From the NCBI GenBank assembly GCA_002794785.1, contig NBBA01000007.1:1240001-1304000 (forward strand): a stretch of DNA of 64,000 nt, read 5' to 3'. This document shows positions 28,512-47,032 of this stretch, in pieces. The notes beneath the pieces are model-generated. The model was not told where the DNA came from and did no database searches. It was given only the letters and a program-made list of their open reading frames with translations. The DNA is from Coniferiporia sulphurascens. Lineage: Eukaryota > Basidiomycota > Agaricomycetes > Hymenochaetales > Hymenochaetaceae. A program made the translations under genes and the position numbers. Numbering within the stretch: the stretch's first letter is position 1; the number at the start of each line of letters is the position of its first letter.

Positions 28512-28541
28512 CATCAGGAAAACCCAAAATCCTATATAGTA
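28512..28541 (+). repeat. Left terminal inverted repeat
   Basis: It begins CATCAGGAAAACCCAAAAT and continues CCTATATAGTA. The reverse complement of the right end (47003-47032) matches over about 30 bp with roughly three differences and one gap. The flanking CA at 28510-28511 is repeated at 47033-47034. Confidence 0.85.
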
Positions 28542-28840
28542 TGGCAGGGGAGCTATATAGTGGTATATAGCAATATATATGACTATTTTTGTGCCCTATA
28601 TGTAGTATAGCATATATAGTACAATATAGTACTATATAGTCACCCAATGTTACTATATTGTACTATATAGTACTATATAGTACTATATATTCACTCAATG
28701 CTACTATATTGTAGTTTATAGCTTTATATAGTATTGCCACTGGTATATATGATTATACAAAGTATTTTGTCTATTTTATAATATTTCAACTATGGTCCAT
28801 CAGCAGTGGCAAAATGTACATGACAGGGCTAATACACTAA
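28542..28840. repeat. Left subterminal palindrome array, no gene
   Basis: An AT-rich region with many copies of TATATAG, CTATATAGTA and the self-complementary TACTATATAGTA, densest at 28600-28700. The right arm has the same motif. Subterminal repeat arrays are typical transposase-binding regions of CACTA-like elements. No coding region is seen before the transposase stop at 28841. Confidence 0.7.
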
Positions 28841-31800
28841 TTAGTAGGTATGAAGACTTCCCCAGTTGTTTATATAAAATGTATCACAGTCATCTAGGAC
28901 AGTATGTGATTTCCAAGATGGATTTACCTTTCTGTTCCCAAATACTGGCACCAACTGAATGCTATGGCGAATTTGAGATAAACAGATGATCCCACCTATT
29001 ATTTCTCCAGTGCCCCTTTCCTTGTGCTTTCTGATCTCGTAGAACCTCGAAGCTGCATCTGGCTCTGCTCTGGCTCTGGTGCACCATTCTACAAAGGCTA
29101 ATGGCTCACATGGCACACCAGGGCTATTGTCTGTGAATAACCTGGGAAGGGAGAATATAACCTTAACTCTTCCTGCTTGTGTACCTAAATCACCCATTAG
29201 TGGGGGAATCAAGACATAAATATAACTCTTACCATCAAGACTAGTATTGTCCTGGAAGTCTGATTCAGCTGGGTCCACCTCAACAAGCACTGTGTCAAAG
29301 CGTGCTGGAATGACTTTCCCTTGATTATCAACTCTTTCTGGGCATGCATGAAATGAGTCCATGACTTCCTTGTCCTTGTCAAGTCCCTGTATGTCCTGAT
29401 GGTGCAAGCGCACAGTTGTCCAAACATTGATGTTGGAGAAGGGAAGGGGATAGTCTTGAACCCTTTGGCCATAGGTATGCATAAGTCCATGTTTGTACAG
29501 GTACTCCTTGAGATACCAAGTGAACCATGGTGCTCTGTGTTCTTCCATCACCAGATCAATATTTCTATTGGGGAATGGTGCAGTCTTTGCCAACAGTATG
29601 GGTTGTCCCTGCCTTGCTTTAAGTAGTGGTGACAATGACTCTTCCTCATGAGTGTGTAAGGCCAAGAGTTGCTGGAATGAAGCAATTTTCTCCTGTCTGT
29701 CAAGCCATTTTAACATCTGTGGCCTTTCTTCCCTCTTATTTGATGCCCGAAAAGCTTGTTTTGCAAAGTTGATATGTAGGCGCTCAAATAGCTCTGTGCT
29801 ATAATTGTCTGTAGCACCAAAGTTCATGATAGATGACTTGTAATGAGGTAGGGATGCAAGTTTGGGGATTTCAAAGTCTGATCATATCCCAAGCTCAATA
29901 AAGATGGATTTGTGCTTGTGAAATGTTTCAAGAGCATCTTCCAAGTACCCTAGGGTTTCTTCACTGTGACTGGGATACTGTGCAATATATGTGAAGTCCA
30001 GGATGGCCCGTGTTGCAATCACCACTTTCTTGGGAACACCATTGGCAATGGCACCAAGTAATAGTTTCATCATTTGCTTGCGCTCTGTCCCAGACACATT
30101 TGTTAAGCTAGAGAGCCCTTTTGGAAAATGCCGGATACCATGGGAAGGAGGAAGTGATTTTATCTGCTGGTCAAATTCTTTCTGTGATAATGCTAGTTGA
30201 CCCCATCCCAATACATGTTTGCATACTCCTCCATGGAGCTGGTGGAGAATATCAGGTGTCATAGATGCATGGATGTTGAGATAAGGTAGGTTCTCCCAAA
30301 ATGGACTGTGGACATGACCATTGAGATTGTTCTCTGGATCTTGACAGACAGTATGGAATGCTCGTTTTGGATGGTTCAAAGCTTTGTCAATAATGTCCAA
30401 AGTTTTCTGGGATGTGCGAAGTTTGCCAGTTCCAGGATCTCCAACTTGCTTTTTCCCCTTGTCACATAGAATGCTCCCTCCATACTTGACACATGTAGCC
30501 AAGCACTGCTCAGGATAGTCGGCAGGATAGCATGCTACAATGGGGAAATTGCTTCAGATGTCACCATCAGCCCCAGTCATGTCCACGCCCTCCCTTCCAG
30601 CCTTCTCTAAGGGTTTTAATATGCATTTCATAGATTCATGGAAAAGGTGGTGTGTTTTGTGTCTGATTTCATCTGGGGAGAGATTGGCAGATGTTATTTT
30701 ATCTGTGGATAGGTATGCCAAGAGTACACAGGCTCTCTGGGTTGGCTTCTTCCGGATAGCACAGGGGATGTTGCCAATTGTTAGATAGACTGGATATGCC
30801 TGTTTGCTCCCACAGAAATTGGTTAATTGGGTTTTATCTGTTGAAATAATAACAAGAATGACTGTTGCCCCTACTGGCAGTAGCTCCTAAAAAGAAGCCT
30901 GCTTAGGTATTTTTGTGAAAATATTGTGAAGGTAGCTCACTTGCACTGTCCACCACCATTTACCAGTCCACATTTCATTGTACAATCTTGAGTCTCGGTC
31001 TGAATTTGCCCACATTTTTGTTGGTGCATAGACCATGTGCTTTGCATATGTAGGATTTTTCCATAGACTCTTGATAGCTTCAATAGGATCACGATACTGA
31101 ATGAGATGGGCTTCATCTGGTTCATCAGCAAGTCTGATGGTAGTTTCATGCCATGGAGCCATTCCTGGTAGCTTGTCTATTTTCTTGTAAAGATTGTCCA
31201 TGTTGTTGAAAGACAAACCAAGCCTGTCAACAAGCTTTTTGAAAAGTAGAGTTCACTATATTGGAAAAAGAATTGATACACTATACAACTTACCCCTGGG
31301 ATTTTAAGAAGCCTGTCTGATGCCGACTTTCCTGAACTATCCTGAATTAGCCACTTTGCCACCTTCCAGTCAAGCTCAGATACAAAGGGCTTGTAAAGAG
31401 TGACTGGCTCAGAACTTCTATCTGTTGGATGGGAATCCTTGTATTCTTGAGTTGTCTGTACATGTCCTACAACCTTTCCTGCAGTTGGATGAATGTCACA
31501 GACTGTGGGAGTTTCATCTGTACAGGGTCGTTTTGGTGGCCTGGGTAGGCCTTCATATAATGTTCCTGGCACATTGTCTGTGTGTGAGACATAAACTGGT
31601 GCATAATCATCCCCTTCCATTATAAACCCATCATCCCAGTTGAGGGGTTCAGCATTTTCACCTTCCATAGCATCTGGAGGGTCATCCTCAAGGTTTTCAC
31701 CTTGTGGAATATAAGCAGACATTAGTTCTGAAACATTCCCTTTATTGTACCATTTGCAGCTTTCAGCCCTGGAAAGGTGAATGTTCCTCCCATGGATGGA

Positions 31801-31881
31801 TGGGAAGTCAGTTCCACAAGCAGGACAGATTTGGTCAATTTTTGTTTGTTGGAGGAGTGTGGTTTGTTTGAAGTAGTTCAT
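28841..31881 (-). pseudogene. Plavaka-type transposase (two TGA codons)
   Basis: DDE (RNase H-fold) transposase that would cut the element at its termini. It starts at ATG 31881 with a Cys/His finger (CPACGTDFPSIHGRNIHLSRAESC, split by two residues more than usual). PFVSELDWKVAKW, GKWWW, the DKTQLT box, YPVYLTIGNIP, VDMTGADGDI, YPEQCL, PFWENLPYLNI and MTPDILHQLHGGVCKH follow, all matching the Plavaka family. Introns are visible at about 31294-31230 (donor GTAAGT) and 30945-30900. The frame is otherwise open to the stop at 28841, but TGA at 30554-30556 and 29882-29884 (plus coordinates) sit where the family has Arg. A very long C-terminal extension of about 330 residues follows LHINFAKQAFRA. 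Confidence 0.88.
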
Positions 31882-32018
31882 AATTGTGAAGGTAACAAAA
31901 AGGGATGATGGTGGTTCAAGATCAAGATAGGTGTGGGAAAATGGACTGAGTGGGGATGTATTTCAAAGGCAACATATGTCAGCATGATTATCTAATTATC
32001 TAACTCTTTTCAAATGTA

Positions 32019-34169
32019 TCATTCACCAAGCTGTGCTGCTTCTGCTATCAAATCCTCCAGCTCATCCTCCTCCATTTCCACAGGGCCCTCAGCATTATTG
32101 TTTCCAATTTTCTCAGCATCTAGTCCTTTCTTCCAGTCCACTTCTGCATCAACCAAATACAATCCTTTTTCAATGGATTCAACCAATGTCTTGGAACTTT
32201 CTCCCCTAAAATCATCACAAATATATCCATGGGGTCCTGTAAAAATACAAGATATTAGTATGCTAATGTATTGGAAAGACATACAATACCTTTATTGGCT
32301 CTGTACTCCATTTTCTTAATATATATACCCCCCTCTCCAGGATGTGCACTTTCAATGGCATCCCTAATAACATTCCTGATGCCTTCATTATTGTGGATGG
32401 CTTCATGGGTACGCAGGATTAAGGTGTGGAGTTGCATGGTGTCAAAATGGACCATATTCTGCAGTTTGAGCCTTTCATCATAGGTCATCTTCCTTTTGAT
32501 TTTGGATGCCAGCCTTCTCTGTTCTTTCTTGTTAAGAAGGCCTATTAGGAGATCTGCAAAATCTTTTGAGCCCTCCAGCTCCTTCTCCACCTTCTCCTTC
32601 TCCTCCATTGTCTTCAAAAGAACTGATTTGACACTCTCTACCTCTCCTTTGACTTTTTTAATCTCTTCCCTGGCCTTCTTGACATCTGCCCGAAGTTTAA
32701 TCTCTGTCTTGTGTGCTGCATACTTGGCAGATCTTTCAGCTCTATGCTTTAGAGTCTGGGAAAGTTATTAAATAAATATAACGAATGAACTAAATATAAA
32801 GGTGGTCATATGAACAACCATCTTACTAAGTAAATGATAACGCAATGATAACACCATACAATAGGAGCTATGATAGTTATAGTATACGTAGCTCACGGTA
32901 GATGTATATAAGGAGAGCTGGTCTCTACCATGAAATACATCGGTTTACGCTGATAACCCACTTCACCTGATCTACTACCACTGCACCTCATCGTCTACCA
33001 CAACATGCGTAGATTTTAAGAAAAGTGCTGTGTGTTCTGCATGAAATGCCACTGCTGACTTCTTCCCAGACCTAAGCAGGCGCTTAAATTGCCTCTTAGA
33101 GAGGCTGGACTTGTGCAGGGGTGCACTGATGTCCTGGGAACTTGGGGCCTGGCGAGGGTTTTTGGCTACCCAAGAAACAGCCTCAGAAATCGCATCCTTT
33201 ATACTAGCCTCCTGATCATCATCAAGGAATGTGGAGAGATGATAGGTGCTTGGGTCTCCAAGTCAAGCAAGGGCATATTTGCTGACACATTTAAAGTGCT
33301 GATAAATTGAGACAGTGGGTATGAAGCCCTGTTTTTACCTGGAATCAGTAGCTAAACACCAGAGAAAGAGAAAAGATAGCACAGACATCCACAGATCTTG
33401 ATCCTGGCATGTCCCGTGCCATGACTAGGTTACCAGGAATTATCTCCTTGTCTATTAAAATTAGAATATTCTCAAAGATCAGATATCAGATAGACTTACT
33501 AGCAAATGTACAATCATCATTTCCACAGAGAACTCTGCCACGAGATGGCTCCCAGCAGATAAATGTGTTTACAGAAGCTGTAATTTCTTTGGTCCTCTGG
33601 TTGTTATTCTCAGTGACTAGAGATTTCTGATCTGTCCGGCTCTTGGAAGCCTTAGGATGCTGCTGCTGTGCTGCACCATCATCTACAGCTTTAACTTGGG
33701 CAAGATGGCAACTTGCATGATAGTCCTTCTTCTCCTGTCTAGTCATTTCCTTCCAAAACATTTTAAGCTAACCCATTAGAATTTAAGAAGAATTAAAGCT
33801 CACCTGGAAGTCCTTCTGCTTTTTTTTCATAGCTTGGATTGACTCTGATTGATCTTCAGTGACTGTGGCACACCCGAAGATCAGGGATTAGTCAGCAACT
33901 GTAAGCACACTTTACAACGTACCAGGATTGGTCTCTATCACCGGTGTATGCTCTCCACTCGGCTTTGCGCTAGCTTCTTCTGCTGCTTTGTGGGCTTGTA
34001 GTGTCTCCCGTACACGACTTGGACGTGAAGCTGCAGCCTGTTTAGACCCAACAGTAGGCTCAAAAGTTGCATTAGCCATGGCTTTTGCAATAACCTCTTC
34101 TCGAGTTGGCAGTTTTGGTCTGCCATTCTTGTACTTGGTCACACCTGGGTCTCTAGCTGCTGGCGACAT
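32019..34169 (-). pseudogene. Accessory gene: AT-hook-like and coiled-coil protein, broken by LTR
   Basis: I do not recognise the family. Exon 1 (34169-33923) encodes a basic N-terminus with KYKNGRPKLP, an AT-hook-like GRP core. A second short exon (VTEDQSES) and a third (33761 to about 33497, KEMTRQEKKDYHASCH) follow behind GT-AG introns. A later coding part runs from about 33,250 through a basic SKRQFKRLLRSGKK segment. It then enters a charged coiled coil (KKAREEIKKVKGEVESVK) and ends in an acidic tail (32282-32019) after an intron at about 32284-32236. A solo LTR (32766-33021) splits the coil exon; removing it and one AAAGT restores the frame exactly. It lies 137 bp upstream of the transposase on the same strand and may be its DNA-binding partner. 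Confidence 0.65.
32766..33021 (+). repeat. Solo copia LTR in the accessory gene
   Basis: A 256-bp solo LTR with perfect 5-bp duplications AAAGT (32761-32765 and 33022-33026). This copy gives the cleanest definition of the LTR ends, TATTAAAT and TTTTAAGA. Confidence 0.95.
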
Positions 34170-34446
34170 GGTACTAGAACAAAAAGCGTATGGTGGTGGT
34201 GCTGACAGTGGTGGTCTCTGTTTGAGTCGGGCCAGCCGTTAAACAGGTGTTACACATGTGTAGTCGGCTATGTGGCATGAATTGTAAGCATATTCATCCA
34301 GATACCGTGTACCATCGGTGCCACTGTCATTTACAGCACTACTCTACATCCCCAGAAGTGAAGATAATGGGCTGGCCCTCCTTAAAAGAGTGAGAATTCC
34401 TTTGCCGTGTTTTGACAACTTCAGACCAAACAAACGCAGGCACCAT

Positions 34447-35850
34447 CCATCGTTGGCAGACGCGTATGTGCTTGGCTTACTTATCCACTACGTCTTCAAC
34501 CCCCAAGCACCCGCACCAGTGACTGCCGATCCGCCCCACCCTCCACCACAACCTTCATCATGCGGTGCAATCCCAACCACGCTTTTCAGTCCCTTCAAGA
34601 GGTTGCTAAACCCTAAAGCCAAAGCACGTCTATCTCCTGCTGCATTTTTGGAAATAAGCATGGCAGAGACAGGTGACGGCAATGGTTTCTTCGCCCACAA
34701 CTCGTTCGTCCATATCTGCCAGGGACTCAACCAATTCAGCTTGAGTGGAGAGGCTGAGAAGGCGATATTACTCAGGTATGCGTTAACTTGGTTCATCCCT
34801 TATTGTTATAAAGGCAACTTTGCACAGGTCGCTAAAAGATGCCACTCCAACCCTGCCGCCCGAGTTTGCCTCACATCGTGTGCTTGCATTGCTTGTATCC
34901 GCACTGGAGTTTGGCGGTGCAACTGCAAATGCTATCCTTCCGATTGTACTCCAGCTCGGTGTCCACGCCTCACCCACTGACTACCCGACCATTGTCCTTG
35001 CCCCTGTCACGAAGCTTTTTGTGAGCACAGACCGCGGTACGTGTATCGCCTTACTTGAACACCTCAGCAAGTACATCGACAAGCTAGACAACAAGACCGT
35101 TTCCGACAAAATGTGGCCCCATCTGCAAACTGGGTTTATGGATACCGTACCAGTGATCTGTGAGGTAATGGTGAAGGCGATCGGCCTTCTTCATACCAAG
35201 GTACTGAAGCTGTAATCCCTCTTTCTGCTACTTGGGCTTACAGCATGCAGTTCAGCGATAGAATCATAAATAACGACCTTTTATGACATCTGGCGAGGAT
35301 GCAAACGGACACAGAGGCGGCAATCCGGACGAACACCTGCATCCTCATTGGACGCCTTGGGCCATCGCTTGGCTACAACACAAAGCGCAAGGTACTCGTC
35401 CCATGCATGCGCTCTGAAGGACCCGTTCGCCTTCGCACGTGTTGCTGGACTTATGGCATTCATGGCGACGATTGACTGCTTCGACGTTGAAGACCTCGCA
35501 ACGAAGGTCCTCCTGTGCATTGCGTTCACCTTGATCAATAGAGAGAAGTATATCTATCCTATACTTCTCAACATCTGAAGTTGTCTCACAAAATACATCG
35601 GGCTAGTACGCAATCAAGCTTTCAAGGCGGTAGAGCTTTTCATCAAGAAACTAGAAACCCATGCCGCATCGATGGTATTATTTTTTCTTTGAGATTTACG
35701 TTTTGATTGCCGGTACTGATTAACTGCAACGCCCAAGACAGAGATGAACAAGAATGGCCAGCCGGATGTCATTCTTCCAATTACTGGCACCCAGAATGCG
35801 CTCGTCAACTCTGCGGCCGGTGCAACTGGTGCACTGGCAGGTCTTCTCCG
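34447..35850 (+). pseudogene. SCY1-like kinase (SCYL1/Cex1) gene fragment
   Basis: Fragment of a host gene for a SCY1-like pseudokinase, which in fungi acts in tRNA export and vesicle traffic. Visible blocks are the end of the kinase domain (DAYVLGLLIHYVFNP, then AIPTTLFSPFKRLLNPKAKARLS) and the HEAT-repeat region (PPEFASHRVLALLVSALEFG; KMWPHLQTGFMDTVPVICE; INNDLL; RTNTCILIGRLGPSLGYNTK; ALKDPFAFARVAGLMAFMAT; QAFKAVELFIKKLETHA). A GT-AG intron (about 34775-34828) is retained, so the copy came from DNA. A TGA at 35284-35286 replaces Arg, and an indel after 35,400 shifts frame. The catalytic N-terminal half is missing. A degraded trace of it may lie at 34318-34446. Confidence 0.88.
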
Positions 35851-35887
35851 GCAGTTCTGACAGCTTCGTTCGCAAAGTCGAAGGGCA

Positions 35888-36022
35888 TGATGCAACACCG
35901 ACCTGTGCCGCACGCAATGTCCTGTCCTTAATCGTGAAGCCGATTTTCTGACATTGGATGACTGTGCCGGGCGTCTTCCCAGGAATGGGAGCTTGATAGA
36001 ACGCTTCATGCCGGTTCATAGT
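35888..36022 (-). pseudogene. Mitochondrial GrpE (Mge1) fragment, C-terminal part
   Basis: Reading from 36022 down: NRHEAFYQAPIPGKTPGTV, then QKIGFTIKDRTLRAAQVGVA, the C-terminal beta domain of GrpE, the nucleotide exchange factor of mitochondrial Hsp70. It abuts the SCYL1 fragment in opposite orientation. The matching N-terminal part lies at 36655-36948, separated by a methyltransferase fragment. Confidence 0.85.
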
Positions 36023-36149
36023 CAAAGATATTTTGGGCTGTTCTCGTGGCCCTCTAAATCAATCTGCTAGTGCCTTCGCATAAATCAAGCTGCCGAAAAT
36101 CGTGTCTGTGGGTTGATCCATAACACTCCCCATAACACTCCCTCTAGAC

Positions 36150-36655
36150 ATGGATTCTCCCGTGTCCTCAGGTATGACTGAACCTGACCGCTTGGCGTGG
36201 TCTATTCCGCACATTCCTCACATGTTTCACAAGGACCCAGATTTCAATTACATTCTTCCTGTGGACGAACAAGAAGCCGAGAGGTCCGTCTGCCTGACTT
36301 GTGGTTCGGAATTGTCCTAAATGCTCTCGCACCAGGCTTGAACTCCAGCATAAAGTGTTTAAGGGGGCGTTCGAAGGCAGGCTTCTACTTCCTCCTTTCA
36401 AGAGCAGCTCCGGTTATGCTGTGCTTGATTCTGGCGTTGGGACCGGTACGTTGGCGACCTTTCATCGTCTTTAAAGAACTTTTTATAATACTTCTTATCT
36501 TGACAGCGGCATGGCTCCTAGATATAGCCTCCCAATTATCACCGTCAGCCATTCTGCATGGGATCGACATTGAAAGTACCTTTTTCCCAAGGGTGCGCCC
36601 TTTGAACATGTCGTTCTCGGTCAACTCGATCACAGTGCTTCCCGGAGAATGGAAC
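36150..36655 (+). pseudogene. SAM-dependent methyltransferase gene fragment
   Basis: This matches the start of a class I methyltransferase common in basidiomycetes. Exon 1 has IPHIPHMFHKDPDFNYILPV and DEQEAER. After a break, LQHKVFKGAFEGRLLLPP and VLDSGVGTG (the SAM-binding motif I) follow. A GT-AG intron at about 36456-36506 leads to AWLLDIASQLSPSAILHGID, then IESTFFP and MSFSVNSITVLPGEW. The coding match stops at about 36652 where GrpE sequence begins on the other strand. The C-terminal half is missing and the first exon is out of frame with the second. Confidence 0.8.
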
Positions 36656-36948
36656 GTGTCACCTGTAGGGTCAAACGGCTTCACGTTGTACTTGAAGAGG
36701 GTCTGCAGCAGTGGTCGGTGCGTCATCTCGACGCTGAGGTGCCGCTCTTTGAGATAATCCTGGGCGGACTTTGGGGAGCTCGGAGAGTCGGGGGATGTGG
36801 GCTCAGAGGTGGGTTGTGAGGTAGAGTCGGCTGGAGATGTCAGTGTGGAATCGGGAATGGACTTCAGTGCGAGGGATAACACATCGACTGTTTCTAACTC
36901 AGAGTCAGACAAGAATTGGACGTACTCGAGTGCGTAAGTCGACGCCAT
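36655..36948 (-). pseudogene. Mitochondrial GrpE (Mge1) fragment, middle part
   Basis: Reading from 36948: an altered QFLSDSELETVDVLSLALKS helix, a Ser/Thr/Pro-rich loop and MTHRPLLQTLFKYNVKPFDP with TGDTF. These are the dimer helices and the turn into the beta domain of GrpE. The protein should go straight on to the block at 36022, but 630 bp holding a methyltransferase fragment intervene. The N-terminal presequence region is absent. Confidence 0.85.
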
Positions 36949-37742
36949 TCCTCATTTCCGAAGCTACATGTAATGTCAACTCTTAGAATCTCACACAATT
37001 CTCTCCCCAGTCTCTTAAGTCCATCGAGCTTTCTCCCGACCTCATGCCTCCTGGCAGTCCCTATCTTCGTTCTGCGCCCCTGGGAGCTATTTCATTTACT
37101 ACAGCTTTGGCACAGTCCCCCCTGACAAGTGCTCATAGTGTTCAATTATCGTCTAGTAAATGCAAAACAAGGCGCCTCGTTCCGACCATACAGCAATTGC
37201 AGCCAGCGCGGCCGAGCGTGATGGAGATGGAGGATGAAGTGACGGCTGATCCTCCGATGTTTAGGCAACTGATGTTTGCAGGTGTGCCCAGCCCCGATGT
37301 GGATGGCTTCAATGGTACTAACAGACTAGATACAGCGATTAACTCTGTCCTGCTTAACAATATCGGGTGTAGGATTGCCTTCAAACGTGATGCTATATTG
37401 GGGAGGGTTCGGGCTCGGACGTTCCAGTGGGATAGCTTCGCGTGAAGCTGACGATGCCTCTGCCGTTCCATCCCTTTGTCCATGCGTCTGCCTCAAGAAA
37501 ACTGTCTGCCAGTCATGTGCCAATACAATCATGGGGGAAGATGGGTGGAGGACTGGCGACCTTATGGATGTGCATGCAGACAAGGGAGACTTCACCTGTT
37601 TGAGAGTGTGCCACCTGCTTCGGCATCTGTGCTAGTATTATAAAGAACTGATTATAAATAACTGAGAAGAGTTATGTGATAAATGTTTGTAATCCGATTT
37701 GTAAAGAAGGGGTTATAGGACTCGTAATAGAGGAAACTTTCA
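36949..37742. other. Unrecognised captured sequence
   Basis: A G+C-moderate stretch with ORFs on both strands, for example 37044-37445 plus (rich in Ser/Pro, including MEMEDEVTADPPMFRQLMFAG). I cannot assign any of them. The base composition resembles the neighbouring host fragments more than the AT-rich arms, so it is probably more captured host DNA. The last 100 bases are AT-rich and lead into the tRNA-like unit. Confidence 0.4.
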
Positions 37743-38035
37743 TGGCCTGGATGGCTCAGTGGTTGAGCGGTTTCCGAACCGTATGGAGGCTCGCATAGAG
37801 TCAGGTGCTTTCGGGTTTCCGAACCTTATGCACCCGCTACTGGGATTGGCAGCAGATACTGTGTAAGATAATCTATCTATGCATAAATGCAGCACATTTG
37901 GTACCGAGTAGGTGTGAAAACGCCACCCTCCTTTCCCATTTTTCTATATTTTATCTAATGTTTTTTGTGGTTTTCCTCCAGTCGCTGTGGGTGGAAGGGT
38001 TAAGTCCTGGGTTCGAGCCCAACAAAAGCAAGTGA
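37743..38035 (+). repeat. tRNA-like polymerase III unit (possible SINE)
   Basis: TGGCTCAGTGG at 37752-37762 matches a polymerase III A box in a D-arm-like context, and GGTTCGAGCCC at 38010-38020 is a canonical B box. The 248-bp spacing is too long for a normal tRNA. TTTCCGAACC occurs twice between them (37771 and about 37816), suggesting an internal duplication or insertion. A T-rich stretch follows. It could be a tRNA-derived SINE or a disrupted tRNA gene. Confidence 0.4.
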
Positions 38036-38222
38036 ATTTTTATTATTATTTCCTAATAAGTCATACAATTCCCTTGGCCACACATGCCTGTTTAATCCCA
38101 CGGCCCTCCCGAGCCCTGCACAGTCTTCAGTCGTCTCGGTCCTGATCTCACCTGCGTCGGCATTGTCTGGTCGTGGAAGAAACTCACTGATTTCCGGGTC
38201 GCCATCCTAGGTACCTCCACCA

Positions 38223-38930
38223 TTGGTCACTAACTTCTCTGGGTCCGAGAATGCGATTCCAGGAGGATTCTCCCCGATTGCTACGGCGGCGGCTGTGCTC
38301 ACAGGGACAAGTCCATCGTCCGTTGCGAGTGGGCCGACACGGTGCGAGAGCGCATCAAGCTCACCCAAGACCACAACCCTCGAGCATCCACCTAATCCTC
38401 TCCCACCCTTGCCCACCACTCCAATGGCAACGAATACGCTTTCAAACCAGCGCACGTCGCCACACCAGCCTTCCAGTCCTGCGTGTCACGGATCCCTTCC
38501 TTCACAATTGGCATATCAAGCCCAAAATAATGCACAGCTCTCGTCTCATCCGCCTTCCCCGTCAAACTCAGGGTACAAGCGCTTGTCTTTCATATCTTAC
38601 AATGATATGCTTGTGAGCACACCTGTGTCTACGCTTCCGCTCTCATCGCTCACGAGCCTGTGCAATGCCGACTCGCCGCCACACATTCCGAGTGTCTCCC
38701 TGTCGGTCAGCGTGGTCAGTGCCGGTGGTAATGTGGGCAGCCGCAGTGTCAGCACCGCTGCGAGCATTGCAGGAAGCGCACGCAATTCACTCATAATCGA
38801 TGGCATGGATCTGCGGCGGATGTAAAGGAGCCTGTGACGACCTTGGTGGCGAATAGGAGCACAAGGGGCTAGGCCGTGGACTTGAGGAGCATTTGGAGGC
38901 ACTTATGGCCGTGGGTCCTGGGAAGGCATA
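38223..38930 (+). pseudogene. Conserved basidiomycete protein fragment, unknown function
   Basis: It encodes a low-complexity Ser/Thr/Pro-rich region followed by YKRLSFISYNDMLVSTP, then LPLSSLTSL and PPHIPSVS. I recall these as a conserved C-terminal block of a basidiomycete-specific protein of unknown function. A stop at 38823 (TAA, from an indel) ends the open frame. The expected C-terminus (EEHLEALMAVGPGKA, stop 38928-38930) is still readable in another frame. Confidence 0.55.
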
Positions 38931-39460
38931 GACAGTCCTTCCGGCTCACATGCCACTTCCGTTCCCTTCAAGCAATTGGGCGCGAATTTATCACAATGTA
39001 ATGGTGGTCATTCACAGGAACATATGTGGACCCCATTCTGTTCCTCTTGATTTGTTCTTCTGTGTGTAAGTGTTTGCTCCTGTCACACTGTTTCTCTTTG
39101 TTTCGCTCCCTACACTACAGTTATAACCTAATGTGCCGTGCCCTATCCCGTTCTACTTTCCCAGTGCGCTTCCCGACTTTTTCTTTCTCCTTTCCTTTCC
39201 GATCCATTTGTGTTGGACAGGGTTTTGCGCTCCCGTGTCGCACCTCCTTTTTTCTTTTCCTGTCCTCATGTAGATAACCTTAACATTAACGATTGCAACG
39301 GCCCTTTCCCCCTACCTAGCCTCTTCCCCTACCTGTTTTCTATTTTCCGTGCCCCGTTCCACTTTCCGTTCCCGGTTATCACTATATATTCATACCATAC
39401 CATATCAAACATGCCAATCCACCATCATCACTGTCCCCTGTTTTCCCCCGGGCCCTCAGA
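38931..39460. other. Junction sequence, no gene
   Basis: A pyrimidine-rich stretch with no supportable gene. It contains a block at about 39037-39083 that is repeated at 41535-41580, including an identical 20-mer. The last part, ending in CAG at 39458-39460, looks like an intron tail in front of the fimbrin exon. Confidence 0.5.
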
Positions 39461-39945
39461 TTCCGATGTTCGAGAACATGAAAGACGGACTCATTATCCT
39501 CCAGGCATTCGACAAGGTTCTTCCCGGCAGCATCATCTGGCGTCGCATCAGCAAGCCCACCGGCAGTCGGCTTGGCGCTGTCCAGCGCGTGTTGGACGAT
39601 GAGGAAGGCGCAGAGCTCGAGGACACAATGCCGAAGCTGTCTCGTTTCAAGAGCATCGAGAACACGAACTATGCCGTCGAGCTCAGCAAGCAGAACAGTA
39701 TGCACCTTGTCAGAATCCAGGGGTCGGACATCGTCAACGGACGCAAGACGCTCGTTCTTGGTCTTGTCTGGCAGCTTATGCGTATGAACATCACGCAGAC
39801 ATTCACCTCGCTCTCTAAAACCGGAAAGGGCGGACCAATCTCCGACACGGAAATGGTCAAGTGGGCTAACGCAACCACTGCCAAGGGAAGCCCAGGCTCA
39901 CAACCCATCCGCTCGTTCAAGGACCCGTCGCTCACCACGGGTGTC
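39461..39945 (+). pseudogene. Fimbrin (Sac6) gene fragment
   Basis: Fragment of the actin-bundling protein fimbrin/plastin. The exon reads FENMKDGLIILQAFDKVLPG, SIIWRRISKP, LSRFKSIENTNYAVELSK, DIVNGRKTLVLGLVWQLMRM and SFKDPSLTTG, which cover the third calponin-homology domain. It begins after a CAG acceptor-like site and stops at a GT-rich boundary near 39,945, so it looks like a single exon lifted from genomic DNA. The frame is intact across the exon. No start codon or other exons are present. Confidence 0.88.
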
Positions 39946-40353
39946 TCCACCCCTATCATCATCACCTGCCAACCCATTCTTGCCCAGGTCCGTTTTGCAT
40001 ACGTATGTAGAACATTGTGTTGCCCATTAGTATATTCGTGCTGAAGATACCAAAGAAACAAAATTGTGTACAACAAAGATGAGCTTTTCTGCCAGTGAAT
40101 CTCTCCCGTCCGTCATGTGATGCATTGCTTGAGTCTACTTTAAACGAGAAATCAAGATGGCGATGTATGGTACAAAGATGGACTGACTCTATTGCGGCTG
40201 GACAGATCTGTTGCTTGTGCAAAGGGGGCCTGGGATCTGGAAACCCGGATGGTGCAGATAGACGCCCTTGAGATCCTACATGATGCAGTGTCTGACTGCA
40301 ACTACGAATCGACATCTCAAACTGCCCATGCTACTTTCTAGTGTGATGCCAGC
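39946..40353. other. Sequence between fimbrin and hydrolase fragments, no gene seen
   Basis: About 400 bp with intron-like and promoter-like composition. The first part may be the intron following the fimbrin exon. I see no conserved coding signal. Confidence 0.4.
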
Positions 40354-41500
40354 ATGCAGAGCATTCACCTTGACGACTGCGGGCCCCCGGGTGGCGTTGA
40401 CTTTGCGTACATTGACTCTGGCACACCTTTGGATAGCAGCGACTATACAACGGTCGTTTGTGTGCATGGGCACTCTTATCACGCCTGTGAGTAAGCTTTG
40501 TACCCATCAGCACAGCAGTACTAGAAGCGGCAGTGTCATCATCATCATTATCATCATCATTATCATTATTGTGATACAAACAAATGCTAATTTCCTCCTT
40601 TCTGCACACCCGCTCACTCAGTGGAAAACAGAAACCTTTGCACGTCTGCTGCCGCTAGGCACACAGCACAACCTCCAGATCATTGCGCTCAACAGACGGG
40701 ATTACGTTGGGTCCACACCGTTCACACCCACCAAGCTCGCTGCACTCACATCGGACTCTACGCCCATGCACAAGGCGTTCTTGTGTGCGTGCACACTTGA
40801 GGTCGCACGGTTCCTTGTGTGGGCCATTTGTGCGCTGGAGATACCGCATGCAGGCGCGGGTAAAGGCAAAGGCAAGGATGGCGGGAAGGGAGGACTGGCG
40901 TTGCTCGGCTGGTCACTTGGGAACATCACGACGTTTGCGTTCCTTGGACATCTCGGTGTGCTCCTGCCTGACGTGCGTGAGGCGCTTGAGCCGTATCTAC
41001 GGTGGTTCTTCATATACAGTTCGTCGGTCCTTCGGTTCTCATAACAGCTTTGCGGCGCATTTTCTGAGTTTAATACGCAGAATCAATGTTGGCGTTCATG
41101 GGTCAAACGCCCTCGCCCGGCGCGTATCACCCCCTGTGGGACCCCGACATCCCGGATCCCCTTATGGTGGCTACCACCAGCGTGTGGTTCATGGCATACT
41201 TCTCGCACCCGTATTTCTCGCGCCTTTCACCTCTCAATATGAATGTGATTTGGGAGGACAGGAAGAAAGGGAGCAAATCCAAAGGGGAACAGAAGAAGAC
41301 GTCGACGCTGGTGCTGACACTGACAACGGATGTGTTTGAGCTGCGTGTGCCACTGCTGTGTCCTGGTGAACCTGTCCCGACAATCACTGATGCGGAATGC
41401 CTAGATTTGGTGCCAAGTGTGCAGTCTGAGTATGCATTTTACAACAGTGTGTGGCGGAGGCGACTTTGTACGTGCAATACGAGGCTGGGCTGTCATTTGC
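40354..41500 (+). pseudogene. Alpha/beta hydrolase gene fragment
   Basis: Exon 1 (ATG 40354 to 40486) reads GGVDFAYIDSGTP and VVCVHGHSYHA, the strand and oxyanion HG region of the fold. A GT-AG intron (40487-40621) contains an ATC/ATT microsatellite. Exon 2 reads FARLLPLGTQHNLQIIALNR and RDYVGSTPFTP, then LLGWSLGN, the nucleophile-elbow region with Ser. A likely second intron (about 41024-41082) leads to exon 3 (MGQTPSPGAYHPLWDPDIPD). The C-terminus is degraded and ends at the repeated junction block near 41,535. The substrate is unknown. Confidence 0.8.
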
Positions 41501-41534
41501 TTCCGCTCCAAGTCCCTCCACCACCTTTGCTCCT

Positions 41535-41580
41535 GTTCTGTTTTTCTTGATTGCTTCTAGGTGTAAGTGTTTGCTCCTGT
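41535..41580 (+). repeat. Second copy of a junction block
   Basis: This segment resembles 39037-39083 over about 46 bp, and the 20-mer GTGTAAGTGTTTGCTCCTGT is identical in both (39064-39083 and 41561-41580). Each copy lies at a boundary between unrelated captured gene fragments. Confidence 0.7.
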
Positions 41581-42690
41581 TGTGCATCTGCTTGATGTCG
41601 TCACTATCAAGGGCAAATCTTGAAGGGCCCTGAGGTGATGTGTATGCTTTTCACCAGTCCTCACTAAGTTGTTAACTATGAGCTGTTCCATAGCGGGTTC
41701 AGTATTGGTATTGGTGACACTGTTGCGGCCAAGGTGACAATGGCTACATTACTGAGCAGATCGAGATATGCACAGGCCATCAAGGATGCACATAACGATT
41801 GGTCAAAGACAGCACAAGGCATGACAATCTGCAAGTCATCTGGAAGTCATGTGAAGCGCTGTGAGCTTAACTGGGTGTGTGATCACTCATGTCAGTACAC
41901 CCAGAAGAACCTAAAGGAGGAATTCAGTCCTGAAGCATGTGGATTTGGTGAGGACTTGTATATACATGCCTGACTCCTCAGGAATTCTTTTTCCACACTG
42001 TGGTGGGTCATGAGGGTTTGATCAATATTGCTGTCAAAACCACTGTAACTGGGTACATTCAATGACAGCTTGTAGAGCCATTGGAAGACATTGTGATTTG
42101 CTATGATGGTACAGTGATTGGGCAATTTGATCCTGTTTGTGTATGGTTGGTGCTTTCATTAAGAGGCAGCCTGAGACAATCAAGGTCTTTGGTTTGAACA
42201 ACTGTGAATTTGAACACCGTTACCAAGTGGACATTACCAATTCAAACAGCAAGTTCTTCCCAGATGTTCTTCAGGTTAGTGTTGACAACCCATCACTTGA
42301 GCTACAATGGAAGCCTGACCTACCTGTGAACCTTAGCCACATTGTACCAAATGCGACACAGTTCTTCCATATTGATCGCAAAAAACCAAGTGACTTGGAA
42401 CTGGCATGCATCATCAACTGGGTGCAACAGCTGGCGGAACGTTTGATTGACATGTGTGGTGATGACATGCTCACCAGGGAAGCTGTGGACAATGCATCAC
42501 TTGCCTTCCGCATGCATCTGCATGCAACATTTGTTGCACACCCCGTTCTCAAGGAGTTCCACTTGAATCATGAAGCTTTTGACTGGCCATGGGAGAAGTG
42601 GAGACAAAGTTTAATCACTCAGTTGCTCATCCTGGTGAAATCATGAAATGTATGGGTACACTCACATCACAGTCAATTGGTGAGCCATAA
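41581..42690 (+). pseudogene. RNA polymerase II largest subunit (Rpb1) gene fragment
   Basis: Fragment of RPB1. It contains [52 protein letters not shown] with [65 protein letters not shown] and AFRMHLHATFVAHPVLKEFH, ending in [11 protein letters not shown]. These follow the order of the active-site and funnel/cleft regions of the real protein, with at least one internal deletion (near 41,900) and several frameshifts. The bridge-helix FFFH region is readable. No introns are evident. The fragment joins a PP2A fragment within about 15 bp of the IGEP motif. Confidence 0.88.
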
Positions 42691-42876
42691 TTCCTGGAAA
42701 AGAATTCTGCACTCATGGAAGAGGTGCTTCTGAGGCTGATGAAGTATTGGCCAAAGGTGAACTCACTGAAGGAGGTCATGCTCCTCAACAATGTGGAGGA
42801 AGTGCTTAATGTGATTGATCCTGCCAAGTTCCTGAAGATCATTGGTGCTGTGTATAAATTCAAGATCACAAAGTGA
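42691..42876 (+). pseudogene. PP2A B56 regulatory subunit (Rts1-like) gene fragment
   Basis: The frame reads SALMEEVLLRLMKYWPKVNS and KEVMLLNNVEEVLNVIDPAK then FLKI, the conserved HEAT-like repeat of B56 subunits that direct PP2A to substrates. It is directly fused to the RPB1 fragment and closes with TGA at 42874-42876. Only about 55 residues are present. Confidence 0.7.
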
Positions 42877-43160
42877 ATGCTTGTCATCCTAATTACACTT
42901 TTTTGTGTTTCTTGTACTTGCTTACATCCTGGATCACCAGATATTGTAGCCTTAAGACTGACTCTAGGCATCAACCCTTTTGCTGTATGCTGTACTTGTA
43001 AGTAAATCACTTGTTGGAACAAGAATAGTGGCTTTCCAAATAAGGATATTAAAACTATACAGTTTTAAATCACACTTCATTTGCCTTTTTGGGAAGCACA
43101 CATCTTTATTGCTTACCATTACCTTCTTGCTTACCTCTACCTCTACTTCTGTACAACAGA
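42877..43160. other. Upstream region of the DUF6532-like gene
   Basis: About 280 bp of AT-rich sequence with no coding signal. It should hold the promoter of the gene starting at 43161. Confidence 0.4.
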
Positions 43161-45090
43161 ATGGCTGGACAAAAAAGGACAATCAGGGGCAAGAAGTCCA
43201 ATGGTGATAATAGCCTTACTTCATCCAATGAAGTGGCTAGGCTCCAGAAACAGCTTGAAGAGGCAAACAAGAGGTTGGCTGAGTCACTGGTAGAAAAATC
43301 ATCTAAGGCTTTAGAAGAGGCTAGAGCAAAAGGTAAATTGCAATTTGCTTTAAACATTTACTGTTCAGCAACTCTACTAATGAATTCTACACCTCTTAGC
43401 TGTGAGGGGAAGGGCAAAAAACCAGATGCAGTTGGAGGATGAAGATGACTTCCCTACCAATCAGTTCTCTGATGGGCTTGGTGCAGAAACTGGTCCCCTA
43501 GGTCAATTGGGTCCTGGAGAACAGGAAAATGGGCAACAGCTTTTGGATTCAGACCAGGATGAAGAGGTCAATGAAGATGGGTCCTTAGCTATCCCAAGTC
43601 CAGGTCCACAAGGTATCCTCACACTTAGGAGTTAGCTGTCACTATTTTTATTTCTATATCCACAGTCAAAAGAAAGCGGACTACTGCAACTTTTGCTGAG
43701 GACTCTGGAGATGGTCTAGACCTCATGCGCACACCCAAGATGCCTGCAAAAAGGCCTCGTAGTGATGTAAATCAGCTTTCCTTCCTAGTACACAGTATCT
43801 TACACACCTGTAGTTTATTATAACAGGTGAATCCTCCAACAGAAGCACCCCAATAGTGCCTAGTCAAATTCCTCAGACATCTGCCCAGGCTCTGTCCAGT
43901 CAGGTAGCAACACCAGCTGCAACAGAGGATAAACCAAAGGATCCAAATATGGATCTAATGGACAAGCCCACTGGCAGGAGCACCAGTGCTAGTAAAGGGG
44001 CAGTCCTCTCAGCTCTGGACCCCAGGAGCAGGTCCTGGGCACAGGCTGCTAGCAAAATATTTAGAGCATCTATTGCTCTAGAAATTGGTTTCCCTACAAA
44101 TGATGAAAAGATAGAAATGGTTTATTCTGCTTTTTGAGATGCTGCACCATCTGGCCTTGGGCCAGACAATGATGAACAGCTAAGAAAATGGAATTTGGAT
44201 GATCATTACAAAACCATTATATTACAAGTGGTAAGTACATATCAGGATAACAATACATTTTCAACTTATTTATCCCATTCAGGTTGGGAGAAACACTGCA
44301 AATGCAAGGCAGAACCTCAAGACAAAGGCCTTAGGGGCAGTTGTGACTGCTTTTCATCTGAACAATGGTGATCCAGCAAAAGTGGCCTCTCTTGTGAAAG
44401 CCCTTATTAGTAAGGGAGCATTTGCATATGGGGGTATACATTTGGATGTGAGCAGTCTATATGCAAGATTTATTGACTAATTTTGAGTCATATTCCTATC
44501 TACTATTCTCTCTAGCCATTTTTTTATGATAAACAGAAGCCATTTGCAAATCCTATTATCAGCCAGATTCTTCAAGCACAGTGGTTTTCTTCCAGAAAGG
44601 CAGATGGAATCAAATTCCAGGACAAGTTCAGTCCCATTCCTTTTCCTGTAATTGCACTAATCCTTACCTCAGTAAGTGATCTACTCCTACTAAGAATACA
44701 TGCTAAATAATTAAGTACAGATTGAGGCAATTTTAATGGATTATGAGTCAGGGACTTTTTTCCAGAAAAAATTTGAAGGGGAATCATTCAGAATTATCTG
44801 GCACAAGCATTTGAAAAGACTGAATGACATGGCTGATCCCAAGAGAGCTCCTACTTATATTGCAGCAATACAAAAGCAGCTTTATAAAGATGCATGGTGA
44901 GACAGATTGCCCTTAAGCCATGGAATTTAAATTAGCTTTTACTTATTGCTCTCAAGTATACATGCCAAACTTGGTATTCCTAATGATGGCAGTGGGGATG
45001 AGGATGCAGAGATAGACTATGCAGCACTTGAAAGATCAGTCACAGCATCTTGTGAGCCATTATTTCACATTTGTTGCTGCATTGTTTGAA
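43161..45090 (+). pseudogene. DUF6532-like transposon accessory gene
   Basis: An eight-exon gene with short GT-AG introns at about 43333-43399, 43613-43665, 43767-43826, 44231-44281, 44449-44515, 44671-44719 and 44896-44955. The N-terminus (MAGQKRTIRGKKS) is basic, then comes a coiled coil (VARLQKQLEEANKRLAE), an acidic stretch and a basic KRKRTT motif. The C-terminal half resembles DUF6532 proteins of agaricomycete elements: FRASIALEIGFPTNDEKIEM, PFANPIISQILQAQWF, FSPIPFPVIALILTS and YESGTFFQKKF. A TGA at 44135-44137 replaces the expected Arg after YSAF; the last exon ends at the stop near 45,090. The molecular function is unknown. Its position suggests a transposon-encoded partner of the transposase. 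Confidence 0.75.
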
Positions 45091-46430
45091 GACTGGGTTT
45101 GTTTATTTTCCAGAACCCATGTAAACTAATCAATCCATCTCTAATTTTGCAATTTTGCAATTATGTATCATATTAGCCAAATAGAACTAAGTGCACACTG
45201 AAGCTAGTGTCAAGTGGCTGCTGTTTGAACCCCCTTTCAAAGGTCTTGTGCTGGCCTCTGGCAAAACAGCAGAGGCAGAAACTAGAATAGGGAGGGGGAC
45301 AATGCCAAGAATCTTGCTATTTGTGGGATTTGGAGGTGATGGGGGTGTGGGGGATGGCAGTAGTGAAGAGAAGAGTTTTTGCACATTGTTCAGCTTTTGT
45401 CAAATTGAGATATATAGACACTTGTTATGCAGATAGTAAGGTCATGCAAATAATGCTTTACAAGGTGTAAACTTCAGACAAATGACACTCACAATGGCAA
45501 GGGCCTAATGATTACTAGCTGTTCAAATCAGTGACAGGCAGGCTTATAAGTAATTTTGTTTAGTATATATGCATGCCTATAAAAGGGATGTTTGTAGATA
45601 TTTGTTTGTCATGTGACCAGCTTCTTTAAAAACCATTTCAGGGTCTTCTGCTTCTCTTATTCCTACCATCATCTTGCCATTTGCAGATATCCACAATTGG
45701 CATTTTGTGTTATGGATTACAAATCTCCTGGGTAATGAAGAGGGGGATGATAGGATCCTACTACCTTCCCTCTCCCATACACACCCATATATCACACTCA
45801 CCCCTATACTAATGGCTGAGTGTCATATTGCTGCAACAAAACAATTATCTCTCATAAGGCTTCTTGCATCTCATGTGTCAGATGACTTGCATGACCCTAA
45901 AGAGTACATATAAACACATTTTCATTCCTCCACTATGGCCTTGCTTGCAGGTAGCCTTGCCATAGTTTCATTTCTTCTCAATTTATCTCACTATGGCTTG
46001 CAGGTGGCCTTGCCATAATTTCACTTCTTCTCAGTTTATCTCATGTCCCATAATGTATGGAAAGCTGACTAATCTGTCCATTCAGCTAGTGTATACTCAA
46101 ATGTTCTACCAGCACAGGTAAGCACTCACTTTCTATTATTTCAGTTAATGTCTCCTTCTAATCCTAGCTTAAATTTAACTGCCAGGGCATAGGCTGCATC
46201 TGTTATACTTTTTTGGTGACCTTGTATACAGTACTCAGAATATTCTCTTTTCTTCCACACTGGCTGTGTAACTGGGTATTATTCTACATTATACTTATAT
46301 ATGATTAGATGATTTCCTGCTTGTTCTAGTATTCATTGCTAATAGATATGAGAAAACTGGTTCTGTACTGTCCAAGCAGTGGTTGTGATCACCCTGTAAA
46401 CTGGTCATTTGTGAGATTTCTGCAGGCCAG
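45091..46430. other. Right arm of the DNA transposon, no gene
   Basis: About 1.3 kb of AT-rich sequence. A short ORF at 45191-45436 has no conserved features and I do not support it. A degenerate tandem duplication of about 54 bp lies at 45932-46039 (both units contain GCAGGT-GCCTTGCCATA). Confidence 0.6.
45932..46039. repeat. Two-copy 54-bp tandem repeat
   Basis: Two adjacent units beginning CACTATGGC and containing GCCTTGCCATA and TTCACTTCTTCTC or its variant, ending TTTATCT. Unit two lacks five bases present in unit one. Confidence 0.7.
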
Positions 46431-46592
46431 AGATAGCCATAAATAGTCAAATATAGTCAGAAATAGCCAAAAATAGCTGGAAAATAGTCATAAATAGCTA
46501 GAAAATAGTTGAAAGCTGTCCAAAAATAGTTGAAAATAGCCAAAATAGTCAGAAAATAGTAGAAAATAGTTAGAAAATAGTGAAAAATAGTG
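46431..46592. repeat. AAATAG-rich subterminal array
   Basis: About sixteen irregularly spaced copies of AAATAG, as AAATAGTC, AAATAGCC and AAAATAGT, at 9-12 bp spacing. It lies inside the right palindrome array and is a likely protein-binding array of the transposon. Confidence 0.65.
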
Positions 46593-46698
46593 GAGAAAGG
46601 AGGCTATATAGCAATATATAGTACTATATAGGAAGGAGGGGCTACTATATAGTACTATAAAGGACTATATTGGACTAAGAAGGGCTGGATTAACCTAT

Positions 46699-46956
46699 TT
46701 ATTAAATAAATATAACGAAACGATATAAATAAACGGATGGTCATATGAACAACCATCTTACTAAGTGAATGATAATGCAATGATAATGCCATACGACAAG
46801 AGCTATGATAGTTATAGTATACGTAGCTCACGGTAGATGTATATAAGGAGAGCTGGTCTCTACCATGAAATACATTGGTTTATGCTGATAACCCACCTTT
46901 GCCTCAACCTCACCACTGCACCTCATCGTCTACCACAACGTGCATAGATTTTAAGA
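46699..46956 (+). repeat. Solo copia LTR in right arm of DNA transposon
   Basis: A 258-bp solo LTR with perfect CTATT duplications (46694-46698 and 46957-46961). It lies in the subterminal region, so it is younger than the transposon. Confidence 0.95.
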
Positions 46957-47002
46957 CTATTTTACCTATGGGCCCTATTTGCATTATATAGTGTTATATA
47001 GT

Positions 47003-47032
47003 ACTATATAGTATTTTTGGTTTTTCCTGATG
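47003..47032 (-). repeat. Right terminal inverted repeat
   Basis: It ends CCTGATG. Its reverse complement starts CATCAGGAAAAACC and continues into ACTATATAGTA, matching the left end. The next bases CAGGTTGACC resume LINE H ORF2. Confidence 0.85.

Follow-up and report, generated by a model that had tools for sequence, protein, structure and literature searches.

How a single DNA transposon can come to hold pieces of many unrelated host genes is the question raised by a 64,000-nucleotide stretch of the Coniferiporia sulphurascens genome (contig NBBA01000007.1, positions 1,240,001 to 1,304,000; hereafter the window). The host is a fungus related to the wood-decay bracket fungi. An initial annotation of the window had described an element of 18.5 kb with fragments of at least eight unrelated host genes. 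This was borne out: the element, of the Plavaka-B type, is 18,521 bp long, has terminal inverted repeats (TIRs) and a 2-bp target site duplication (TSD), CA, and carries cargo from nine source loci of its own genome. The cargo was probably assembled by repeated templated break repair inside Plavaka-B elements, which then transposed with their load. Capture by the element and the nested serial order are read from the sequence; the repair mechanism is only what we infer.

The cargo was searched against its own genome (39.35 Mb in 31 contigs; sources are written as C, contig number and position). From 34349 to 42839 it maps nearly gap-free, with 73-98% identity, to nine loci at other places of the host genome, and the host-derived total in the element is 7,922 bp (Table 1). 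The sources are separate, mostly single-copy loci: SCYL1/Cex1, Mge1, a methyltransferase, an S/P-rich protein, pantothenate kinase, a two-gene locus, fimbrin, RPB1 and PP2A-B56. Eight of the nine are on other contigs and the ninth, the two-gene locus, is on the same contig about 1 Mb away. Every block was traced to a separate, diverged source, and the captured pieces were shown by alignment to be copies of loci that are still present in the host genome.

The SCYL1/Cex1 source gene matched PDB 3vwa (E=3.6e-7) and its orthologues are named CEX1. Domain matches were obtained for GrpE/Mge1 (3.1e-35), the methyltransferase (7.5e-8) and B56 (4.1e-150), and the RPB1 source has five Rpb1 domains. The gene list of the initial annotation stood for SCYL1/Cex1, Mge1 (two pieces), the methyltransferase, fimbrin, RPB1 and B56. 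It had missed the source of 37365-37493, which is pantothenate kinase (Fumble domain, 3e-54). Its alpha/beta-hydrolase piece belongs to a captured locus: the whole of 38105-41580 derives from a single locus (C7:225644-228668), in which two gene-like sets of open reading frames (ORFs) lie. A Pfam scan of the hydrolase-like and S/P-rich ORFs gave no match, and the hydrolase label for the second ORF set is based on a GWSLG motif. The pieces had also been described as joined end to end. Direct joins between different loci in the window element, the C7 copy, do have 0-3 bp of overlap or leave 1-2 bp between them; the exceptions to the host tiling are 37632-38104 (a segment resembling a short interspersed nuclear element, SINE, plus spacer) and 41581-41622 (42 bp before RPB1).

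Aligned with the C. weirii protein, the captured SCYL1 stretch shows five intron-like gaps, and the C7 block crosses the DNA between the two ORF sets; the fimbrin block consists of one exon. Because these intron-like gaps are retained and intergenic DNA is included, the copying was at the DNA level, as the initial annotation had argued from introns in the SCYL1, methyltransferase and hydrolase pieces, an argument that held for SCYL1. The five retained introns rule out a complementary DNA (cDNA) origin of the SCYL1 fragment. The SCYL1 gene of the host genome is nearest to that of Coniferiporia weirii (85% over the query), and its fimbrin to those of Phellopilus and Fomitiporia (92-93%), which places the genome in the Hymenochaetales. 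At C11 ~1488298 the genomic fimbrin switches frame within a conserved stretch and the captured copy stays in one frame; the frame change may be either an assembly base error or a real frameshift.

The fragments lie within one another. The SCYL1 source breaks off at C19:281463 and picks up at 281454 past about 1.6 kb of foreign material, with 8 bp lost. Mge1 breaks off at 1173232 and picks up at 1173238 on either side of the methyltransferase piece (5 bp lost), and the C7 locus breaks off at 227309 and picks up at 227293 on either side of fimbrin (15 bp lost). The layers are methyltransferase in Mge1 in SCYL1, and fimbrin in the two-gene locus. The nesting of the aligned blocks shows the captures to be serial, with later ones inside earlier ones. 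Divergence from the source at non-CpG sites was 89/1,396 (0.064) for SCYL1 and 43/1,361 (0.032) for the four sources nested in it (P=8e-5), and 142/2,255 (0.063) for the C7 locus and 12/369 (0.033) for the nested fimbrin (P=0.02); these values are rough ages only, since the regions differ in constraint. Only alignments longer than 40 bp were used here and in the junction, codon-position, synonymous/non-synonymous and outgroup analyses.

The junctions were compared with random joins of the same loci. Block pairs no more than 12 bp apart gave 23 pairs, from which four same-locus pairs were dropped; the C8:589 block and the SINE-like segment were omitted, as were C16 and C1, the sisters of C20 and C25. 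Of the resulting 19 inter-locus junctions, 14 overlapped by 0-3 bp, in 11 cases by at least 1 bp; these overlaps total 22 bp, where random joins would give 9.4 (P=0.002). When the same-locus pairs were included, 17 of 23 had an overlap of zero or more, with a sum of 34 against 15.4 (P=0.001). The joins of a further, partial copy on C6 (0, 0, -1 and +3) were kept outside all junction tests. Beside the main fragment there are also back-jumps to the same template, one of 112 bp at a GH5-like locus (in C20 and C16) and a weaker one of 49 bp at the C7 locus. The latter is a match (83%) to C7:227718-227668 that ends the 39944-41580 block and is read as a back-jump copy of the same template.

The genome contains five further two-ended copies of the element (C20, C25, C12, C16 and C1) and one partial copy, with cargo that is partly common and partly different. 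The TSDs are CA in C7, TA in C20, AA in C12, CA in C16, TT in C25 and CA in C1. The transposase region, the SINE-like segment and a right-hand module are common to the six two-ended copies, and the remaining sibling sequence largely maps, with gaps, to more host loci. G-alpha, RPL24, DnaJ and HMG-box genes were above Pfam cut-offs, and a GH5-like gene and a 4CXXC-zinc-finger-like gene were under them; also present are the stretch 5' of the B56 ORF and other loci to which Pfam gave no name. In the transposase region at non-CpG sites, the distance between the C7 copy and four siblings is 0.075-0.100. C20 and C16, which have common cargo and TSDs TA and CA, are 0.9% apart by the same measure, and C25 and C1, with common cargo and TSDs TT and CA, are 1.6% apart. 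Because cargo-sharing copies occupy different sites with their own TSDs, the cargo-laden elements have moved. Wherever copies have cargo in common, the SINE-like segment, C7 locus, DnaJ, B56 region, block L070 and right module follow one another in a constant sequence and direction, which suggests that an ancestor was already loaded and that pieces were later gained and lost.

About 24 source loci were counted over all seven copies. Short matches at C4:995323, C16:769915, C21:548470, C1:2279789 and one at C11:1499621 were placed outside this count, and C1:3991563-3994015 of one sibling (2,453 N) outside the analysis. Among the 24 loci, one pair lies within 10 kb (C1:3385/3393 kb) against 0.14 pairs expected. 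This one clustered pair, adjacent in the cargo, is too little to claim that the cargo is an itinerary of loci visited by the element. The locus C11:1497233-1498215, which matches a captured block considered below, is separated from the fimbrin source by about 9 kb.

A before/after pair was found at RPL24. The partial copy (C6:772600-775000, covered over 2.4 kb, with its termini outside that stretch) has an RPL24 fragment split between C7:861890 and 861887, and C12 has the same fragment unbroken. The insert runs C5:91591-91488, C3:1573426-1572983, C5:91475-91318, a C5 piece split by a C3 piece; its two layers measure 698 bp and replace 2 bp of RPL24. When both fragments were compared with the gene, 72 of 377 columns differed: 35 identically in both, 23 in C12 only, 13 in C6 only and one differently in each. 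Because 35 of the 72 departures are common to C12 and C6, the simplest reading is one RPL24 capture followed by the two-layer insertion.

In the proposed mechanism, a double-strand break within the element, or a fork stalled there, would set off each addition. Repair synthesis would then jump to chromosomal templates of unrelated sequence, in most cases across 0-3 bp of microhomology, and would at times return to the same template, before rejoining the other end with a loss of 2-15 bp. Transposase acting in cis or trans would spread the enlarged element, and silencing would let the cargo decay as if CpG-methylated. Several observations weigh against this account. Five of the 19 junctions have 1-5 bp from neither parent, which end joining fits too, and the microhomology test rests on the 14 non-gapped junctions only. 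There is no cis bias, as none of the nine C7-copy sources lies within 15 kb, unlike animal gap-filling. The methyltransferase (13/561, 0.023) is nominally only a little below the enclosing Mge1 (10/312, 0.032), and the inward gradient at non-CpG sites in C6 is slight (RPL24 15/318, C5 9/203, C3 13/376). One captured block has two sources, C20:638409-639388 and C11:1497233-1498215, at 89% each, making its origin ambiguous. Finally, non-CpG differences stood at 4.5, 3.5 and 10.7% at codon positions 1, 2 and 3 (ten blocks, three copies), a third-position excess greater than the simple expectation for a neutrally decaying copy and a constrained parent; part of it may reflect silent changes accumulated in the sources.

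The possibility was considered that pre-existing DNA fragments were ligated into breaks by end joining of debris, with no template copied in place. The short or absent microhomology, the extra bases at some junctions and the small target deletions all agree with it. However, the sources are still in place, the back-jump re-copies, of which the 49-bp one is the weaker, are more natural for switching synthesis, and cDNA is excluded by the introns as the SCYL1 material. Ligation of debris is regarded as unlikely.

A second alternative, which is disfavoured and considered very unlikely, is that neighbouring insertions fused through aberrant excision and took the intervening DNA with them, as in the Pack-CACTA style of capture. 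Plavaka is near CACTA/EnSpm according to the available text of one report (PMC12730594), and such a model has been put forward for Pack-TYPE elements in the accessible parts of two others (PMC13317346, PMC8903248). That model predicts segments between element ends, whereas here there are fragments within fragments and small deletions, and the nested anatomy does not fit tandem insertion as outlined in what is available of the Pack-CACTA account (PMC13317346). Furthermore, CATCAGG occurs in the C7 copy at the terminus only, and the two extra CCTGATG motifs sit in the transposase region, away from fragment borders.

That the cargo is a mosaic made mainly by recombination between family members is somewhat less probable still. 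The shared blocks (C7 locus, DnaJ, B56 region and L070) do keep the same order and orientation with neighbours that differ by copy, and recombination of this kind may contribute to the cargo. Nevertheless, it leaves the first acquisition unexplained, and likewise the RPL24 pair with its two-layer insert at a single site.

Horizontal transfer of the element and its cargo from another species would agree with the third-position excess and with the low RPB1 identity. With C. weirii as the outgroup, 47 SCYL1 residues were cargo-only, 13 were common to cargo and source against the outgroup, and 0 were common to cargo and outgroup against the source; two more distant outgroups gave 30 and 36 cargo-only residues against 1 and 2 common to cargo and outgroup. 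At these residues the cargo is the decaying partner relative to the source gene. A horizontal origin was rejected on this comparison and is most improbable, the more so as the cargo of the siblings also has its sources in this genome. An assembly chimera or segmental duplication, for which nothing was found in favour, has a negligible likelihood: six copies have TSDs, the blocks are 2-27% diverged from their sources, the LINE flanks described below rejoin, and the genome search gave no co-linear region in which the parents stand side by side as they do in the cargo.

The decay of the cargo was evident at CpG sites. In 14 gene stretches longer than 100 bp, 5-50% of source CpG had become TpG or CpA in the cargo, and 0-11% the reverse, as would be expected of silenced or methylated DNA. 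This range leaves aside two stretches shorter than 50 bp (0/4 vs 2/8; 2/4 vs 0/0) and two comparisons in which the C6 copy took the place of the parent (0/10 vs 6/22; 2/10 vs 18/44). Seven gene blocks had 186 non-synonymous and 155 synonymous differing codons, and three stop codons (one in SCYL1, two in RPB1). The blocks gave no clear sign of coding constraint or of fragments kept as proteins. Seven loci have 26-260 exact 21-mers in common with the cargo, while RPB1 and B56 have 0. Chimeric genes and small RNAs, the consequences suggested in the initial annotation, are conjectural, though small-RNA cross-talk between cargo and source genes is possible.

The element itself has the termini CATCAGGAAAA (starting with CATCAGG) on the left and CCTGATG on the right. 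Removal of the element leaves an unbroken long interspersed nuclear element (LINE) alignment across the flanks, with 52857-53164 (88%) and 17908-18205 (86%). Additional LINE copies in both orientations lie near the element, at 10090-10381, 17908-18205, 20686-20977, 52857-53164 and 61554-61846. The Plavaka domain PF18759 was found in two minus-strand ORFs at 29882-31252 (2.5e-29 and 1.1e-24) and also in the other five two-ended copies; the C-terminal ORF of the region is DUF6830-like (1.6e-4, under the DUF6830 cut-off). Two in-frame stops in the transposase region of the C7 copy are absent there from C20 and C25 and common to C16. Because of these stops, we infer that the C7 copy no longer encodes a full transposase itself. 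With the PF18759 domain, CATCA..TGATG ends in 6/6 copies and a 2-bp TSD in 6/6, the element has the features of Plavaka. Membership of the Helitrons (RepHel, no TSD, no TIR) was ruled out, as it has TIRs and a TSD, and a domain scan of nine of its ORFs gave Plavaka transposase and no helicase. Direct repeats of 256/257 bp at 32766 and 46700 were rejected as element ends, being two solo long terminal repeats (LTRs) with separate 5-bp TSDs. The right-hand module may encode a second element protein with many introns; the one ORF scanned in it (43053-43442) gave no Pfam match. Part of the multi-copy segment, 37730-38088, matches about 20 other loci in the genome. With its tRNA-like boxes the segment is probably a SINE, and ARAGORN and Rfam run on the element gave no tRNA or RNA-family match. 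Roughly eleven more Plavaka loci, nine of them above the family cut-off, lie in the genome outside the Plavaka-B family described here.

Table 1. Features of the element, in window coordinates, with the host sources of its cargo
Feature	Position	Strand	Source and remarks
TSD CA, 2 bp	left 28510-28511, right 47033-47034	.	basis: flank comparison
Complete Plavaka-type element	28512-47032	.	18,521 bp; sits in LINE reverse-transcriptase ORF
Left TIR	28512-28529	+	17/18 bp identical to right end; CATCAGG terminus same in 6/6 copies
Transposase region	28841-31962	-	two PF18759 ORFs and DUF6830-like C-terminal ORF; in-frame stops in C7 copy
Solo LTR of LTR retrotransposon	32766-33021	.	many genome copies; 5-bp TSD AAAGT; later insertion
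SCYL1/Cex1 fragment	34349-35889	+	C19:283218-281463; 205-bp skip; five introns kept
Mge1/GrpE fragment, part 1	35889-36017	-	C9:1173104-1173232, 98%
S-adenosylmethionine (SAM) methyltransferase fragment	36019-36652	+	C8:5410-4778, 96%; inside Mge1 fragment (5 bp Mge1 missing)
Mge1/GrpE fragment, part 2	36652-36898	-	C9:1173238-1173484, 94%
S/P-rich protein gene fragment	36896-37364	+	C1:3385128-3385607, 89%; without Pfam match
Pantothenate kinase fragment	37365-37493	-	C1:3393659-3393790, 92%
SCYL1, second part	37492-37631	+	C19:281454-281313, 80%; after ~1.6 kb insert, 8 bp missing
Multi-copy SINE-like segment	37654-38088	.	same place in six copies; tRNA-like A and B boxes (by eye)
C7 two-gene locus, part 1	38105-39469	+	C7:228668-227309, 88%
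Fimbrin fragment	39467-39946	+	C11:1488357-1487879, 94%; inside C7 locus (15 bp missing); 3-bp overlap at both joins
C7 two-gene locus, part 2	39944-41580	+	C7:227293-225644, 80%
RPB1 fragment	41623-42686	+	C1:1108646-1107325, 73-79%; two internal deletions
PP2A-B56 fragment	42689-42839	+	C13:935814-935664, 89%
Right-hand module	42960-46700	+	3.7 kb; common to six copies
Second solo LTR	46700-46956	.	5-bp TSD CTATT; later insertion
Right TIR	47015-47032	-	pairs with left TIR

Plant Pack-MULEs and maize Helitrons can carry many gene pieces. In the fungal gene-capture, transduplication and Plavaka literature, the top-ranked search results, with most subscription journals outside the search, held no Plavaka element with comparable cargo, in agreement with the statement of the initial annotation that none was known. 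The element resembles the Plavaka-B elements of Agaricomycotina, which have CATCA..TGATG ends and a 2- or 3-bp TSD in the available text of their description (PMC12730594), in its PF18759 transposase, its ends and its 2-bp TSD. The captured gene discussed in that available text is a TET/JBP dioxygenase only, in contrast to the stacked, broken host-gene fragments seen here (PMC12730594). The likeness to Pack-type capture drawn in the initial annotation applies to the outcome, host gene fragments between TIRs, as in Pack-MULE and Pack-CACTA (PMC8903248, PMC13317346, as far as their text was available). It does not extend to membership or anatomy: Pack-TYPE elements are by definition non-autonomous plant elements in the accessible part of PMC8903248, whereas here a fungal element has transposase sequence in all six two-ended copies and a nested, serial capture. 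In mode there is a likeness to the gap filling (FoSTeST) of animal Pack-TIRs, where DNA is likewise acquired internally, across a small gap and with short microhomology (a median of 2 bp in the animal cases), by copying of the source (PMC8277862, available portion). Unlike here, 56.9% of the sources in that portion lay within 15 kb and the median size was 224 bp (PMC8277862), and captures in the present family are stacked up to three deep. Fungal DNA transposons with host-type genes are also known from transduplication in Dothideomycetes, where hAT elements carry histone H3 and a Tc1/Mariner family carries one ORF (PMC3538342, PMC6710886, in their available text). There, in contrast, one captured gene is named per family, nesting is not mentioned in that text, and the Pseudocercospora fijiensis H3 is transcript-derived. 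The Helitrons of Pleurotus ostreatus are likewise basidiomycete class II elements with extra genes, to go by the accessible text (PMC4289320).

Gene acquisition by transposons has so far been argued from plant and animal cases, usually from the finished product only. Here the nesting gives the order, the siblings give before and after, and the sources are still present, so that break-repair and tandem-fusion models become directly testable. The family is a fungal cut-and-paste family that has sampled about two dozen host loci; elsewhere, in the available text of the fungal reports, one captured gene is named per family. More tentatively, and with less confidence than attaches to the repair mechanism, Plavaka-B of this lineage may be self-loading. 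Internal breaks arising in rounds of activity would be filled from host genes, and the copies would form a growing, ordered stratigraphy of captures that can be read by nesting and divergence. The common ancestor would already have held the C7-locus, DnaJ and B56-region fragments, with its descendants each adding their own.

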